DNA from: a virus
Reading direction: 5' to 3' (one strand)
IMG/VR virus record: IMGVR_UViG_3300032456_000020
Span: 1-23,441 of that record
DNA length: 23,441 bases
Part shown: positions 7,326-23,441 of the stretch, in pieces
How positions within the stretch are numbered: position 1 is the stretch's first letter
How the letters are laid out: the number at the start of each line of letters is the position of its first letter
Notes under the pieces: model-generated
Seen by the model: the letters and a program-made list of their open reading frames with translations, nothing else
What the model was told of the DNA's origin: nothing
Database searches by the model: none
Translations under genes and position numbers: made by a program

Positions 7326-7751
7326 ATGCAAGTCTTAATCCCTGATTTTCAAGAATATTCTATCGCGCTTAATCCTGACAACCCAATGGATGGAACGCGG
7401 CGACTGAGGGTGGTATGCCGCGAGACTAGTCAGGTTTCTGATGGATACCACACGTTTGATGAGCTGTACAAACATCGCCATTTGTTGTTCTTTGCCTTGC
7501 TTATCCAACACAGTTCAAACGCATATAAGAGTCGCCTGCACTATGACGGATCAAGTTACGAAGGCTGGTTTATTGCAGGGTGTGATTTATTCACAGAGCC
7601 TATTGCATATCATCTGCCCAATTCTATATGGGATTTATGCCCCGTCCGTACAGTTGAACGCGCTCCAGAATGGGACGGACACACGAGTAATGATCTAGTC
7701 GATCACGTAGAGACTTGGCTTAGTCGGTTCACCGCATCTACCCGGCAGTAG
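7326..7751 (+). CDS. Conserved phage protein with SDGYHTFDELY...WDGHTS motifs (copy 1)
   Basis: This 141-residue protein contains VSDGYHTFDELYKHRHLLF (about residues 36-54), then SRLHYDGSSYEGWFIAG, AYHLPNSIWDLC and APEWDGHTSND. I recognise this motif order from hypothetical proteins of many phages and prophages, where the WDGHTS box is the most constant part. The function is not known to me. The conserved His and Asp residues hint at catalysis or metal binding, but this is inference. GAGG four bases before ATG gives a good ribosome site. It is the first member of a tandem pair and lies opposite to the surrounding late genes. Confidence 0.85.
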   Translation: MQVLIPDFQEYSIALNPDNPMDGTRRLRVVCRETSQVSDGYHTFDELYKHRHLLFFALLIQHSSNAYKSRLHYDGSSYEGWFIAGCDLFTEPIAYHLPNSIWDLCPVRTVERAPEWDGHTSNDLVDHVETWLSRFTASTRQ

Positions 7752-7785: not shown

Positions 7786-8208
7786 ATGGAAGTCTTAATC
7801 CCTGATGTTAAGGAATATACTGTCAACTTTGATCCTTACAAACAGGATGGAGAGCGACACCTAAGAGTGGTATGCGGCGAGACTGGTCAGATTTCCGATG
7901 GATACCACACATTTGATGAGTTGTATGAACACCGCCATTTGTTGTTCCTTGCCTTGCTTATCCAGCACAGTTCAAGCACGTATAAAAGTCGTCGGCACCA
8001 CGACGGCTCAAGTTACGGCGGCTATTTTATTGCAGGGTGTGATTTATGCCCAGGGATTATTACATATCATCTGCCCAATTCTATGTGGGATTTATGCCCC
8101 GCCCCTGAGATTGAATACGCTCCAGAGTGGGACGGACACACGAGTAATGATGTATGCGATCGCTTGAGAGATTGGGTTAGTCGGTCTGCACCATCTACCC
8201 CGCAGTAG
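7786..8208 (+). CDS. Conserved phage protein with SDGYHTFDELY...WDGHTS motifs (copy 2)
   Basis: A 140-residue paralogue of the preceding gene, with the same leader and ribosome site. It keeps ISDGYHTFDELYEHRHLLF, RHHDGSSYGGYFIAG, TYHLPNSMWDLC and APEWDGHTSND. Differences concentrate in the first 30 residues, the loop after IAGCDL, and the C-terminal 20 residues. All the invariant positions of the family remain in both copies, so neither looks degenerate. Its end overlaps the end of the convergent minus-strand gene by 14 bases. The function is unknown. Confidence 0.85.
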   Translation: MEVLIPDVKEYTVNFDPYKQDGERHLRVVCGETGQISDGYHTFDELYEHRHLLFLALLIQHSSSTYKSRRHHDGSSYGGYFIAGCDLCPGIITYHLPNSMWDLCPAPEIEYAPEWDGHTSNDVCDRLRDWVSRSAPSTPQ

Positions 8209-14499: not shown

Positions 14500-14570
14500 G
14501 CACAGGTTACTCAAATGGAAAGGCTTACACGCTGCGGAGTGGAGACTGTGAAGTTAGGCATTACAGCGCA

Positions 14571-15269
14571 ATGAACATCAATGATGAAGGTTTGACGGGT
14601 CCAGATTTAAGAAATGTAAATCTCAAGGGTGCAAATCTAAGTTACGGCTATCTAGAAAATGCAAACCTGAGAGGTACAGATCTCAGGGGTGCAGATATAA
14701 AAAGTGCCCATCTCAATGGGGCAAATCTAGGAAATGCAAACCTAAAAGGTGCAAATCTCAGGGGTGCCCACCTAGATTACGCATATCTCAGGGGTGTAGA
14801 TCTCAGGGGTGGAGATCTCAGTTACGCCAGCCTGAAATATGCAGATCTAGGAGGCGCGAATCTCAGGGGTGTAGATCTCAGGGGGGCAAATCTCTTTGGG
14901 GCAGATCTCAGTTACACGGACCTTAGAGGAGCAGATCTAAATTACGCAGATCTAGAAAATGCATGTCTCAGGGGTTCATATCTCAAAGGTTCGGATATCA
15001 GATTAGCAAATCTAATTCAGATCAAAGAAGATTTTTTCAAGAGGACAGCACCCCAGCTCCAAGAACTAAAGATGCTTCGATCTGCCTTAATCGCAGGAAA
15101 AGTCAACGGTCAAAGCAAGACAAGATTCTTTGCCTTCCAAAATTCCGTATGCCCAATACAAAGGTGGTTTCTGGGTATAAGCCCAGGTAATACAAATGAA
15201 AGTTCCGAGATAGTCGAAATAACGGTCGGATGGATCGACGAAATCTTAAATAGCAACTCCCACGGCTAA
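14571..15269 (+). CDS. Pentapeptide-repeat protein with unusual C-terminal domain
   Basis: Residues about 8-150 contain some 28 pentapeptide units (A[D/N]LXX pattern: GANLSYGYLENANLRGTDLR and onward), which form a right-handed quadrilateral beta helix. After them comes a cyanobacterial-type C-terminal region: EDFFKRTAPQLQELKMLRSA, AGKVNG, then IQRWFLGISPGNT and a final WIDEIL. In the family the Cys-rich 'GECACLVGTIAN' segment normally follows GKVNG; here it is missing and replaced by QSKTRFFAFQNSVCP. Pentapeptide proteins of phages and bacteria can mimic DNA and protect gyrase, but function cannot be fixed here. The start codon at 14571 lacks a clear ribosome site. Confidence 0.85.
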   Translation: MNINDEGLTGPDLRNVNLKGANLSYGYLENANLRGTDLRGADIKSAHLNGANLGNANLKGANLRGAHLDYAYLRGVDLRGGDLSYASLKYADLGGANLRGVDLRGANLFGADLSYTDLRGADLNYADLENACLRGSYLKGSDIRLANLIQIKEDFFKRTAPQLQELKMLRSALIAGKVNGQSKTRFFAFQNSVCPIQRWFLGISPGNTNESSEIVEITVGWIDEILNSNSHG

Positions 15270-15291
15270 CACCACGCAGGGCAAAAATTAA

Positions 15292-15312
15292 AGCCGTGCT
15301 AGAGGCACGGCT
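15292..15312 (+). other. Hairpin next to the initiator start codon
   Basis: A perfect 8-bp inverted repeat AGCCGTGC / GCACGGCT around the loop TAGAG ends only five bases before the ATG at 15318. It occupies the place of the ribosome site. It follows ACGCAGGGCAAAA (15274-15286), a sequence also found at 18529 and 18926. It may control translation of the initiator. Confidence 0.75.
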
Positions 15313-15317
15313 CAATC

Positions 15318-16307
15318 ATGAGAGATACACAATCATATCGCATCAGCAAATTTTACCCCCTCACAGCAGAAATGGCTAGAGAGCTACGAGAGATAGGCTT
15401 ACACGCCGCAGAATGGCGACTGTGGAGCTACCTAGCGACGTTTGAGCCATTTGGAGATGAATACACCGAATTGCCCGACCTACTGAGCATTCTGACTGAA
15501 TGCAACATCAGCAAGGCAACCTTCTACCGAGCGATCGCCAAGTTCGCTGAGCATGGGCTGTTTGATATTCAGATTAATCAAATCCAGGTGCGGAATTTAC
15601 GCGGCTCAAAAGCGTCTCATCCATGCAAGAAAAGTCTCATGGATGAGAGTAAAAGTCTCATGGATGAGAGTAAAAGTCTCATGGGTGAGACTATTCCTTA
15701 TATAAAGGAAACCTGTAACGTAGAACCAGAAAGGGATACAGCCGATTTGCCAAAAAGTACCATACAACAGAGTTTAAAAGAACAAGAACAATTGATTGTA
15801 AGCAAAAGCTTTAACAAAGAAGAACAAGCGATGGAATTAAAAAGACTTTGCAGAATTTTGGAAGAATCAGGAATAAATCCAAACAAAACGATCCAGGAAA
15901 CAATTGCTTCATTGATTAGCAACCGTTCCGCCGCCGCCGCCCTGGAATCTGTGGAAAACGCCATATCTGCCCTACACAAGCAGCAAACGAAGGAAACGGT
16001 GCGAAACCCGCAAGGCTTTATCAACGCAGCTTTAAGAGGCGGTTTTACCGCAAATGGAGCAATTAAGGCAAGGGCAACGCAACAGCAACCTAAGCCAGAC
16101 GAACCCTATGGCTTCCCAGTTGAGCCAGTTAGCCTTAGCCTGATTTCTCAGTCGGTTGATATGGCGTTAATGAGCGGCGATCGCCCGTTTGCGCTATCCA
16201 AACTTCAAGGGCTATGGGAAGGGGGGCATGACCTTGAGGAGCTACTGATACTCCGCAAAGATTGGGGTTTCTGCCTGACAACAGAAGGGGTGAGGGAGAA
16301 AACTTAG
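15318..16307 (+). CDS. Winged-helix replication-initiator candidate
   Basis: This 329-residue protein starts MRDTQSYRISKFYPLTAEMA. Residues about 20-90 form a winged helix-turn-helix (GLHAAEWRLWSYLATFEPFG then NISKATFYRAIAKFAEHGLF), as in RepA/DnaD/lambda O-type initiators and related plasmid proteins. Residues about 108-126 read SLMDESKSLMDESKSLMGE, coded by 21-bp tandem repeats that look like iterons. An AT-rich Lys/Gln/Asn section follows. The C-terminal 120 residues are helical (NAISALHKQQTKETVRNPQG, LEELLILRKDWGF). No helicase or polymerase motif was seen. Location at the end of the plus-strand early region supports a replication role. Confidence 0.6.
   Translation: MRDTQSYRISKFYPLTAEMARELREIGLHAAEWRLWSYLATFEPFGDEYTELPDLLSILTECNISKATFYRAIAKFAEHGLFDIQINQIQVRNLRGSKASHPCKKSLMDESKSLMDESKSLMGETIPYIKETCNVEPERDTADLPKSTIQQSLKEQEQLIVSKSFNKEEQAMELKRLCRILEESGINPNKTIQETIASLISNRSAAAALESVENAISALHKQQTKETVRNPQGFINAALRGGFTANGAIKARATQQQPKPDEPYGFPVEPVSLSLISQSVDMALMSGDRPFALSKLQGLWEGGHDLEELLILRKDWGFCLTTEGVREKT
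15613..15692. repeat. Iteron-like repeats inside the initiator gene (origin candidate)
   Basis: Three tandem 21-bp units start at 15630, 15651 and 15672. Each contains GTCTCATGGATGAGAG or a variant (GTGAGAC in the third) with internal arms CTCAT / ATGAG. Upstream, TCTCATCCATG (15615-15625) is the exact inverse of CATGGATGAGA in the first unit. Iterons followed by AT-rich DNA within an initiator gene recall the lambda O-gene origin. They also code for the SLMDESK repeats, so a protein-level explanation exists. Confidence 0.65.
15693..15900. other. AT-rich stretch after the iterons (possible unwinding element)
   Basis: By count, 15781-15900 has 38 G or C in 120 bases (about 32%), clearly lower than the surrounding DNA. 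It begins with TTATATAAAGGAA (15697-15709). One strand is strongly A-rich. Such a stretch beside iterons is what an origin's unwinding element looks like, though it also encodes a Lys/Gln/Asn-rich linker. Confidence 0.5.
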
Positions 16308-16924
16308 CTTTCTCCCAAATAGCGCAGCAGAGCATCACAATGCTTCAGCGCCCGACCCGCCTCAATACGCGATCGCATCTCCACAGCTTCCTTAGCATCA
16401 ATGTACTGGGCAGGCTTCCCAGTTTTCTTGTAGTACTGCACCCTAACGCGATCGCCCCCCGCCGACTCTAGCCAGCAATCAGTCAGAGCCGTTGCCGCGA
16501 CGCGATCGCGCAGGGCTTGTAAGACGATGAGGGGTTCAGCCCCTAGATCGTGAGGGGTTGAGGTCATTTCTTCTGAGGGGTTCAAGTCCTCAGAGTGAGG
16601 GGGTGAGGTCATCAGAGTGGGAGACTCAGCACTAGCAGGGGTTTCATCCACAGATCTTGAGGGGTTGAAGTCCTCTTGAGGGGGTGAGGTCATCCATTCA
16701 GGATCGCCCGTGAAGCCATCAATGATCGTCAGTTGTTCTGCTACGGGCAGGATGCCGGGGACGAACTCTAAGAGCAGCGGATCGAAAGCTTTGATCGTGC
16801 CGTGCTGATCACTTCTTACCTTAATCCTTTCCCCGTTTTTGCCAAACACCACCCCGGTAGAGCCGGAGTGTTTACCACCGATGAGCCTGACGCGATCGCC
16901 AGGAGCAAAAGCAAGATTATTCAT
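16304..16924 (-). CDS. KOW/SH3-like domain protein with repeated linker
   Basis: The ATG at 16924 gives 206 residues. Residues about 1-55 (FAPGDRVRLIGGKHSGSTGV, then ERIKVRSDQHGTIKAF) match a KOW-type SH3 barrel as found in NusG and ribosomal proteins, which bind RNA or DNA. The linker contains three related blocks: MTSPPQEDFNPS, MTSPPHSEDLNPS and MTSTPHDLGAE. The C-terminal 75 residues (ALRDRVAATALTDCWLESAG, VRVQYYKKTGKPAQYIDAKE) form a second domain. The gene overlaps the upstream gene by eight bases, and its stop overlaps the convergent initiator stop. A transcription role (antitermination) is a reasonable guess. Confidence 0.7.
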   Translation of the reverse strand: MNNLAFAPGDRVRLIGGKHSGSTGVVFGKNGERIKVRSDQHGTIKAFDPLLLEFVPGILPVAEQLTIIDGFTGDPEWMTSPPQEDFNPSRSVDETPASAESPTLMTSPPHSEDLNPSEEMTSTPHDLGAEPLIVLQALRDRVAATALTDCWLESAGGDRVRVQYYKKTGKPAQYIDAKEAVEMRSRIEAGRALKHCDALLRYLGES

Positions 16925-17087
16925 TCTCCAGCACCCGCAGAAACTCACGCAGCCTGTCAAACTTAGCCACGTCGCCAGATTGAACGGTCGCGCCGAAAGC
17001 TGCCAGCAAATCGGCAATCTTAGCCGCATTTGCCCCTGGTGGTGCAGTGATTTTGATCTCAATCACGTAATCCTTTAGCTTTTTCAT
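16917..17087 (-). CDS. Unknown small protein, 56 residues
   Basis: The protein starts MKKLKDYVIEIKITAPPGAN, then AAKIADLLAAFGATVQSGDV, and ends EFLRVLENE. The beta strand followed by a helix and a conserved-looking Gly/Ala turn suggests a small ferredoxin-like or ACT-like fold, which is speculation. Its ATG overlaps the stop of the upstream gene by four bases, and its end overlaps the start of the KOW-type gene by eight bases, so the three are translationally coupled. It is a strongly supported gene by spacing. Confidence 0.8.
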   Translation of the reverse strand: MKKLKDYVIEIKITAPPGANAAKIADLLAAFGATVQSGDVAKFDRLREFLRVLENE

Positions 17088-17395
17088 ACTTCCTCTTCTG
17101 TTGGGTTCTGTTGGGGAGATAGCAGCTTATGCAGTTGCGGAATGCTAATGCCTTTCAAGTCAGCCTGCCTAATCCGCTCCAGTAGCTCAGCCTGTCCCAG
17201 GTTGTACAGATCGCAGTAGTACTGGAGTTTGTCATCAATTAAGTCCTTGTTCGCATCAGTTCGAGCCACCGCCAGGTTACGCAGCAGCGCGGCTTTGCTT
17301 TGCCTATCGACAAATGCCCAAAGCAAAAGGCGATCGTAGTGATAGTCCCCAAACTCGGCAGAACCTATACGTGTATCGGATGGGGTGATCAACAT
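17084..17395 (-). CDS. Unknown helical protein, 103 residues, first gene of a three-gene unit
   Basis: The ATG at 17395 gives MLITPSDTRIGSAEFGDYHY. A TTG at 17410 would add five residues. The remainder is helical, including RLLLWAFVDRQSKAALLRNL, KLQYYCDLYNLGQAELLERI and ISIPQLHKLLSPQQN. The last part could hold a DNA-binding helix-turn-helix, but no motif is decisive. No Shine-Dalgarno sequence is visible. It faces the intergenic region with direct repeats (17396-17555), which may be its promoter and operator. Confidence 0.7.
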   Translation of the reverse strand: MLITPSDTRIGSAEFGDYHYDRLLLWAFVDRQSKAALLRNLAVARTDANKDLIDDKLQYYCDLYNLGQAELLERIRQADLKGISIPQLHKLLSPQQNPTEEEV

Positions 17396-17555
17396 ATTTA
17401 AAAGTGCCAAATGTTGGAATATTGCAGCAAACCTATATCTATTTTGCCTTATGTCCTGGTATATTGCGTATAGTATTGCTGGTATATGCCATCGATATTA
17501 TATCTACACTCCGCGATCGCTTTTGTTGTAGGAAGCGATCGCATTTATTACCAAA
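17396..17555. promoter_or_regulatory. Divergent intergenic region with direct repeats
   Basis: It separates two divergent units. CTGGTATATTGC and CTGGTATATGCC are direct repeats about 25 bases apart (near 17456 and 17481). On the minus strand TATAAT lies in GATATAATATCG, a possible -10 for the leftward unit, without a convincing -35. Two HIP1 sites (GCGATCGC) lie 17 bases apart near the plus-strand start. Operator function of the repeats is inferred. Confidence 0.45.
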
Positions 17556-22525: not shown

Positions 22526-22920
22526 TGCCGCATCGCGCTTACGTTCAAATATTGATGATTGTCGGGGTTGTTGTAGTTCGTTGCCCCCAGGAAACGCCCC
22601 AGGCGATCTGTCTCTTTGATGTAAGCCTGATCGCGTTCCTTTTGGGATGGGGCACGGAATTCAACATCGCTATAATTGCGATCGCCCGTGAGTACCCGCC
22701 GAGATGCAATACCGCTATCTTGTGCATCCGTTTCGGTTTCGTCAAATGTGCGATCGCATCGGTTAAGCAGCTTCACCGCCCAGGCAATCCATTGCACCGT
22801 GCGACTATTATCATTCAATGCCGCCCTGAGAATCACCTCATCGCCAAACGGAACCGCCCGACTGGTATAGCCCAGATGGTTTTTAGCCCGTTCTTCATCG
22901 GCAAAGAGCAGCATCGGCAT
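22522..22920 (-). CDS. Head-tail connector-region protein, 132 residues (complete copy)
   Basis: The protein starts MPMLLFADEERAKNHLGYTS and has helices RTVQWIAWAVKLLNRCDRTF and PSQKERDQAYIKETDRLGRF. The C-terminus is Asn/Tyr-rich (ATNYNNPDNHQYLNVSAMRQ). Mostly helical proteins of this length just after the capsid genes are often head-tail adaptors (gp6/gp15-like), but I see no specific motif. The start overlaps the previous stop (TAATG), and the end overlaps the 71-residue gene (ATGA). The left partial copy (1-309) shows substitutions scattered along the protein. Confidence 0.8.
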   Translation of the reverse strand: MPMLLFADEERAKNHLGYTSRAVPFGDEVILRAALNDNSRTVQWIAWAVKLLNRCDRTFDETETDAQDSGIASRRVLTGDRNYSDVEFRAPSQKERDQAYIKETDRLGRFLGATNYNNPDNHQYLNVSAMRQ

Positions 22921-23192
22921 TAAATGACTGCTCCATCTTTATCTAGCGGTATCCGTTTGCCGCTTGCTTTTGGTGCAGGTGGGAATTTATTAAAGCTGAT
23001 TTCGTGGGGTTCGATAAAGTCAGGCAACCCAGCGACATCGCCTTTTGGCTGATAGCAAAGCACCATACCAGAGCCATTCAGCAAAACATCTGCTTCAATC
23101 TTTTCACCCTTATAGAACAACTGATCTAAGGGGACATCGACCGAGAAATCACCAAAATAATCAGGGGTCAAAATAATTGGCGATCTTTTCAT
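22920..23192 (-). CDS. Small virion-region protein, 90 residues (right copy)
   Basis: The second copy of the gene at 309-581, starting MKRSPIILTPDYFGDF. Eleven base differences give four residue changes (positions 2, 40, 88 and 90); the rest are silent. The reading frame and both overlaps with neighbours are intact, so both copies look functional. In the circular reading they are alleles of a single gene. Confidence 0.85.
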   Translation of the reverse strand: MKRSPIILTPDYFGDFSVDVPLDQLFYKGEKIEADVLLNGSGMVLCYQPKGDVAGLPDFIEPHEISFNKFPPAPKASGKRIPLDKDGAVI

Positions 23193-23441
23193 AGCAAATC
23201 ACTCCGATAAATAATATTTAATTCACGTTCCTGTTCCCGCGATAGCAAAATGCCATCATCCACCGTAGGGGCACCCACAAGCATTTGGAATACAACCCGC
23301 ACATCGACCCGCACTGGACGAATTTGGGGCGAGTTTGGCGGCGCAACCGTCGCACCTACGGGCGATTGGTTAGTTCCTTGCAGTGTCCGAGTCCCAGGAT
23401 CAATATTGCCAGCATGCAAAAACAGCTTAGGGCTGAAGTTG
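23189..23441 (-). CDS. Virion-region protein, partial right copy (C-terminal 83 codons)
   Basis: The end of the gene corresponding to 578-1183, cut by the window edge at 23441. Within the shared part only one residue differs (SREQERELN against SHEQERELN) and the other three base changes are silent. The overlap of four bases with the 90-residue gene is kept. Confidence 0.8.
   Translation of the reverse strand, partial: NFSPKLFLHAGNIDPGTRTLQGTNQSPVGATVAPPNSPQIRPVRVDVRVVFQMLVGAPTVDDGILLSREQERELNIIYRSDLL

Follow-up and report, generated by a model that had tools for sequence, protein, structure and literature searches.

A candidate replication initiator gene with palindromic iterons inside its coding sequence in a tailed phage and in cyanobacterial plasmids

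In phage lambda the replication origin lies in the initiator gene O, where inverted-repeat iterons follow the part that encodes the N-terminal DNA-binding domain. These iterons start at 39034, 39054, 39078 and 39101, i.e. at a spacing of 20-24 bp. An A+T-rich stretch follows them within the origin (PMC5043065). In plasmid pSK41, the winged helix-turn-helix (wHTH) N-domain of a RepA_N initiator binds four Rep boxes within rep. The linker that the origin encodes can be dispensed with, and N-domain and origin have been exchanged as a module while the C-domain was kept (PMC5703833). The nearest precedent is pPR9, in which the pSK41 N-domain and origin have given way to an HTH_36 N-domain with its own origin (PMC5703833). 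The Rep proteins CyRepA1/CyRepA2 and CyRepX1/CyRepX2 are known from cyanobacterial plasmids (PMC9978351, PMC10079941, PMC10899382). In the passages of this literature that were covered they are larger proteins with helicase or primase-like domains, and in-gene iterons of a kind comparable to those considered here do not occur there. Here we examined a phage gene for which an earlier note had suggested a lambda-O-like origin within the coding sequence.

The gene and its iteron array

The window, i.e. the whole stretch of viral DNA that was analysed (23,441 nucleotides; IMG/VR record IMGVR_UViG_3300032456_000020), contains terminase, virion and endolysin genes and thus derives from a tailed phage. 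Its ends, 7-830 and 22618-23441, are repeats with 96.2% identity, and the 16.8-kb contig of a relative, L003, is a circular permutation across the window join. The phage map therefore comprises about 22.6 kb and is circular or terminally redundant with strain variation. DnaB, primase or polymerase were not recognised among the window proteins scanned, a subset of the ORFs. Two adjacent paralogous genes (7326-7751 and 7786-8208, about 83% DNA identity) both match phrog_3392, the function of which is unknown. An opposite-strand gene at 16304-17062 carries five copies of the 18-bp G-rich repeat TGAGGGGGTGAGGTCATC at 16551-16694. The features of the gene under study are:

15318-16307, plus strand: putative replication initiator gene, 329 amino acids (P0001; from the ORF, its translation, an AlphaFold2 model and homologues)
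15351-15608, plus strand: wHTH domain, about residues 12-97 (profile from 19 homologues and the model)
15513-15551, plus strand: predicted recognition helix, residues 66-78, KATFYRAIAKFAE; S65 precedes it and A67 covaries with the half-site
15615-15628, plus strand: degenerate iteron 0, TCTCATCCATGCAA, in a different reading frame; counterpart of TCTCAAAAATGCGA in homologues
15635-15648, plus strand: iteron 1, TCTCATGGATGAGA (palindrome search)
15656-15669, plus strand: iteron 2, TCTCATGGATGAGA (palindrome search)
15677-15690, plus strand: iteron 3, TCTCATGGGTGAGA, core of the longer palindrome AGTCTCATGGGTGAGACT (15675-15692)
15694-15711, plus strand: small palindrome TTCCTTATATAAAGGAAA immediately 3' of the iterons
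15769-15888, plus strand: AT-rich candidate duplex-unwinding element, 29.2% G+C, the lowest 120 bp in the window

P0001 begins with the wHTH, which is followed by the linker encoded by the iterons and by a helical C-terminal part. AlphaFold2 modelled residues 20-90, i.e. the wHTH, with a pLDDT of about 90; the C-terminus was poorly resolved and of low confidence, and no function was derived from it. The top matches in a structural search were wHTH proteins, including the RepA_N initiators 4pql and 4pt7 with Z about 7 over 82-83 residues, a score tied with many other wHTH proteins and typical of wHTH folds. Foldseek with the same model returned generic wHTH matches alone, none at E below 0.001, and a PDB sequence search had no matches. 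HTH_36 (pfam13730) was among the Pfam hints for the gene family, below cut-off. Directly 5' of the gene is one for a pentapeptide-repeat protein (14571-15269), with a 9-bp hairpin (15291-15313) between the two. Upstream of the pentapeptide gene lies a 39-bp relic (14518-14556) with a stop at its end. It shares 82% identity with the wHTH of the putative initiator gene (LHAAEWRLW), and is possibly the remnant of a second copy.

Three 21-bp iterons with internal palindromes had been noted before, and they are there. Directly after the wHTH, positions 15630-15692 consist of three units, AAAAGTCTCATGGATGAGAGT twice and then AAAAGTCTCATGGGTGAGACT. In the window there are exactly three copies of the palindrome TCTCAnnnnTGAGA, all within the array (15635, 15656 and 15677), against 0.03 expected; none of 100 shuffles of the window reached three copies. 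Upon encoding the same peptide with random synonymous codons the observed palindrome score was reached in 1 of 5000 trials. The inverted half-site TCTCATCCATG that the earlier note had seen just upstream is real (15615-15625) and an exact inverted copy of CATGGATGAGA, yet the better description is a fourth, degenerate iteron. It starts 20 bp before iteron 1, has kept the left arm and is in another reading frame (TCT CAT CCA TGC), and the TCTCAAAAATGCGA iterons of homologues behave alike. Iteron 0 keeps the 20-bp, shifted-frame form, and the 21-bp spacing of the other three is an in-frame variant. In Synechocystis plasmid members a TTATATA or TATATA tract is likewise located 3' of the iterons.

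The A+T-rich stretch that adjoins the array is a candidate unwinding element by composition. The segment proposed earlier, 15781-15900, ranks with 31.7% G+C in the bottom 0.14% of all segments of 120 bp. By nearest-neighbour stability 15769-15888 was not singled out, the least stable 120 bp being 17387-17506. GC skew did not serve as an origin marker, as had been proposed, because in the window, taken as a circle of about 22.6 kb, it did not turn at the iterons. GC and AT skew were computed for the window and four plasmids and were treated as uninformative: the GC-skew minimum was about 2.1 kb from the iterons in the related plasmids pSYLC and pSyn7338-2, and not near them in p1-NIES88, pSYSM or the window.

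Homologues, recognition helices and half-sites

The same wHTH, followed by palindromes at 20-21 bp spacing, is found in about 45 related genes, most of which lie on plasmids of cyanobacteria. The group, including the window gene, was delimited by a wHTH matching profile A3 directly followed by such palindromes. The plasmid homologues are from Anabaena, Dolichospermum, Calothrix, Tolypothrix, Synechocystis, Microcystis and Gloeocapsopsis. Further ones were found in cyanobacterial genomes, a set in which two loci are labelled as MAGs of other bacteria; homologues were present in 15 of 386 sampled cyanobacterial genomes. A scan of genome contigs with a single protein gave none, and with an alignment homologues were detected. 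Three viral contigs besides the window carry homologues; a protein search of phage records had none.

A residue of the recognition helix predicts the half-site. An alanine or proline goes with TCTC (16/16) and a serine or threonine with T[T/C]CC (11/11), counts that are not independent as the homologues are mutually related; among the 11 is L056, whose half-sites are TCCGC and in which no site of either type could be counted. Thus, the helices SKAT, SRAT and SKPT pair with TCTCA, and KKST, KKTT, SRTT and GKTT pair with T[T/C]CC. Other helices are accompanied by other palindromes (TGTCC, TCGCC, TGTGC, TGATC). The viral contig L090, found later, fits the rule with KKTTFYKA and TTTCCG. Two genes of one Synechocystis genome, L066 and L028, have C-termini that are 97.6% identical, whereas their wHTH domains share 64% and their linkers 37%, and their iterons are of the TCTC and the TCCC type, respectively. 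By these identities wHTH and iterons were exchanged as one block. This exchange is an independent event, despite the relatedness that inflates the counts. On the strength of covariation and module exchange the N-terminal wHTH is predicted to bind the iterons.

A putative initiator and its replicon setting

DnaB is encoded directly downstream of the gene in L017, L018 and L030, and the annotation places it downstream in L007 and L008 as well; the lineages with dnaB directly downstream are Aphanothece, Prochloraceae and the Nostoc/Calothrix/Tolypothrix group. Next to the window gene there is no dnaB, and an XRE-like regulator, sought with profile A5 in the window, was not found. Plasmid members have ParA downstream and, in many cases, a small divergent HTH regulator upstream. 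Plasmid pSYSM of Synechocystis 6803 carries two wHTH-iteron modules, 69335-70810 and 100798-102288 (L036:6007-7482 and L098:798-2288), each with genes for ParA and for a divergent HTH regulator in its vicinity. A search for CyRepA1/CyRepX1 at E 1e-3 had no match on pSYSM, pSyn7338-2 and p1-NIES88, all of which carry the module. pSYLC contains only broken CyRepX pieces, and pUHCC0315b one CyRepA-like gene. On the plasmids compared CyRepA1/CyRepX1 did not match the wHTH-iteron gene.

Identity with CyRepA or CyRepX was rejected in view of the small size of P0001 and of a Pfam scan in which it matched no helicase (DEXD) or primase domain. A resemblance to RepA_N may lie in the wHTH fold, RepA_N initiators being among the generic structural matches. 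The differences are the hosts, staphylococci versus cyanobacteria, and the palindromic iterons, whose reading frame rotates at the 20-bp spacing; the RepA_N model (PF06970) matched none of 16 full-length members, and membership by Pfam was rejected. The order of wHTH, iterons and AT-rich DNA does mirror the lambda O gene, as the earlier note had it, and in this the comparison upheld the proposal. What did not stand is a relationship. A probability of 4% in hhalign, profile A3 versus lambda O, means no detectable sequence relation; the iteron sequence is different, and in place of the lambda P loader there is dnaB or nothing adjacent. Membership in the lambda O family was rejected, and the system is better described as an initiator family of cyanobacterial plasmids and phages. 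It may work like lambda O or RepA_N, and these comparisons did not place it in either. A literature search of partial coverage gave no report of an in-gene iteron origin of this type in cyanobacteria.

The array, its spacing, its conservation as DNA, the covariation, the module exchange, the plasmid setting and the linkage to dnaB in relatives, all read from sequence, argue that the gene is very probably a replication initiator with the origin inside its own coding sequence. Counting against this are the lack of a dnaB or XRE-like neighbour of the window gene, the lack of the TTCAGACT repeats of most relatives, a GC skew that does not turn at the iterons, and a C-terminal model of low confidence. 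What we infer by analogy is that the protein binds the iterons and dimerises, that the DNA melts, that the helicase is recruited and that the site serves as an origin. The N-terminal wHTH would bind, probably as dimers, the four iterons in its own gene, one of them degenerate. As these are two helical turns apart, they would present themselves on the same face of the DNA. Loading of the array would bend the DNA and open the AT-rich stretch at about 15769-15888. DnaB would next be recruited with the help of the C-terminal part; this helicase is presumably encoded by the host in the case of the window phage and is encoded next door in some plasmid relatives.

Alternatively, the palindromes might be operators or a partition (centromere-like) site of a wHTH autoregulator or segregation adaptor, and the origin might be elsewhere. 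TubR and ParR, which bind iterons, are models for such an adaptor, wHTH regulators commonly bind palindromes, and ParA or ParM genes are near several plasmid members. We consider this unlikely because the iterons, at which no promoter-like site was found, are within the gene and 300 bp past its start, and because an HTH regulator and ParA are already encoded separately on the plasmids. Furthermore, the dnaB genes directly downstream in several lineages, and the module-bearing plasmids that have no other recognised Rep, speak for an initiator.

If the gene is an initiator, the analysis indicates a candidate gene and origin for plasmids whose Rep proteins are unknown. According to the passages covered this applies to many large cyanobacterial plasmids, and the Rep of pSYSM is explicitly stated as unknown (PMC10899382). 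From the helix/half-site rule one could predict which origins are compatible, on plasmids and phages alike, and new compatible vectors are a possible yield. A wider view is offered tentatively: the genes may constitute an unrecognised replicon family across cyanobacterial plasmids and phages, in which a swappable cassette of wHTH and iterons within rep determines incompatibility through a helix-to-half-site rule that can be read off, and nucleases fused to this type of wHTH, next to a rep of another class, would cut the origins of competitors.

Such fusions of a Rep-type wHTH with a nuclease-like domain, carrying a GRIDLLTESEIIEVK motif, are encoded at L006:2442-2993, L025:3495-4064, L033:3384-3968 and L074:1264-1809; further Rep-type wHTH-nuclease fusions are at L023:3498-3967 and L035:3474-3980 (HNH). 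From the motif, a nuclease of the PD-(D/E)XK type is a guess, and the model of the wHTH-nuclease was poor (pLDDT 51). The four fusions named first sit directly upstream of an intact wHTH-iteron gene, and in L006, L025 and L033 the wHTH of the fusion best matches an iteron/rep class other than that of the adjacent rep. Odn of phage ICP1 is an origin-directed nuclease with a PLE RepA-like DNA-binding domain (PMC8263062). The ORFs of L006, L025, L033 and L074 resemble it in that a Rep-type DNA-binding module is fused to a nuclease; they differ in their setting, which is a cyanobacterial plasmid with a neighbouring rep that is of another class (L006, L025 and L033). By this likeness the fusions are possibly origin-directed nucleases.

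The repeats as DNA, RNA and peptide

In 46 of 47 genes, covering all classes, the best repeat period was 20, 21 or the double thereof (39-42 bp); 20-21 bp correspond to two helical turns. In the TCTC class, at 20-bp spacing, the iteron is read in all three frames in 12 genes and in two frames in 2 more. Depending on the frame GTCTCAAAAATGAGAC encodes SLKNET or VSKMRQ and, as TCTCAAAAATGCGA, DSQKCE. With up to one mismatch, TCTC-class iterons matched 82 times after the wHTH and twice elsewhere. The mean palindrome score right after the wHTH was 5.8 compared to 2.3 in synonymous shuffles and 2.0 in the rest of the gene. In a synonymous-shuffle test 24 of 49 genes were below 0.05, a test that on its own is weak in repeat-rich relatives; the DNA-level argument therefore rests on frame rotation. 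As the same motif at 20 bp rotates through three frames, the DNA is selected and not the peptide. The 20-bp array through all three frames is a clear case of a coding sequence that is shaped by a function at the DNA level. The earlier note had suggested such a function, and had named homologues that keep the SLMDESK peptide while the DNA diverges as speaking against it. The alignment showed the opposite: the palindromes and their spacing are kept while peptide and frame change.

Could hairpins in the mRNA, for attenuation or ribosome control, be selected rather than DNA sites? RNA folding of the region is favourable (z = -5.6), as it would be for any palindromic array. We rejected this reading as highly improbable because the constant 20-21 bp pitch points to DNA helical phase, the recurrent TCTCAAAAATGCGA iterons retain a half-site yet are incapable of full pairing, and the arm sequence follows the recognition helix of the protein. 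Equally improbable, and likewise rejected, is that the DNA repeats arose incidentally, through selection for a repeat in the peptide linker (SLMDESK) or through a recent tandem duplication: the 21-bp spacing in the window does give an in-frame peptide repeat, and L003, a close relative, has four copies instead of three, with a D-to-G change within the repeats and unchanged arms, but homologues repeat the DNA at 20 bp with rotating frames and differing peptides, and palindromes almost never arise from random synonymous codons.

A second element is found 3' of the iterons in most relatives, namely TTCAGACTT direct repeats in 2-4 copies at 9-11 bp spacing. Neither these nor the TTCAGACT repeats, located 3' of the iterons in most relatives, occur in the window. 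Since the spacing of the TTCAGACTT repeats often is not a multiple of three, they are probably another DNA-level element, perhaps an unwinding element. In L018 they begin 232 bp after the wHTH.
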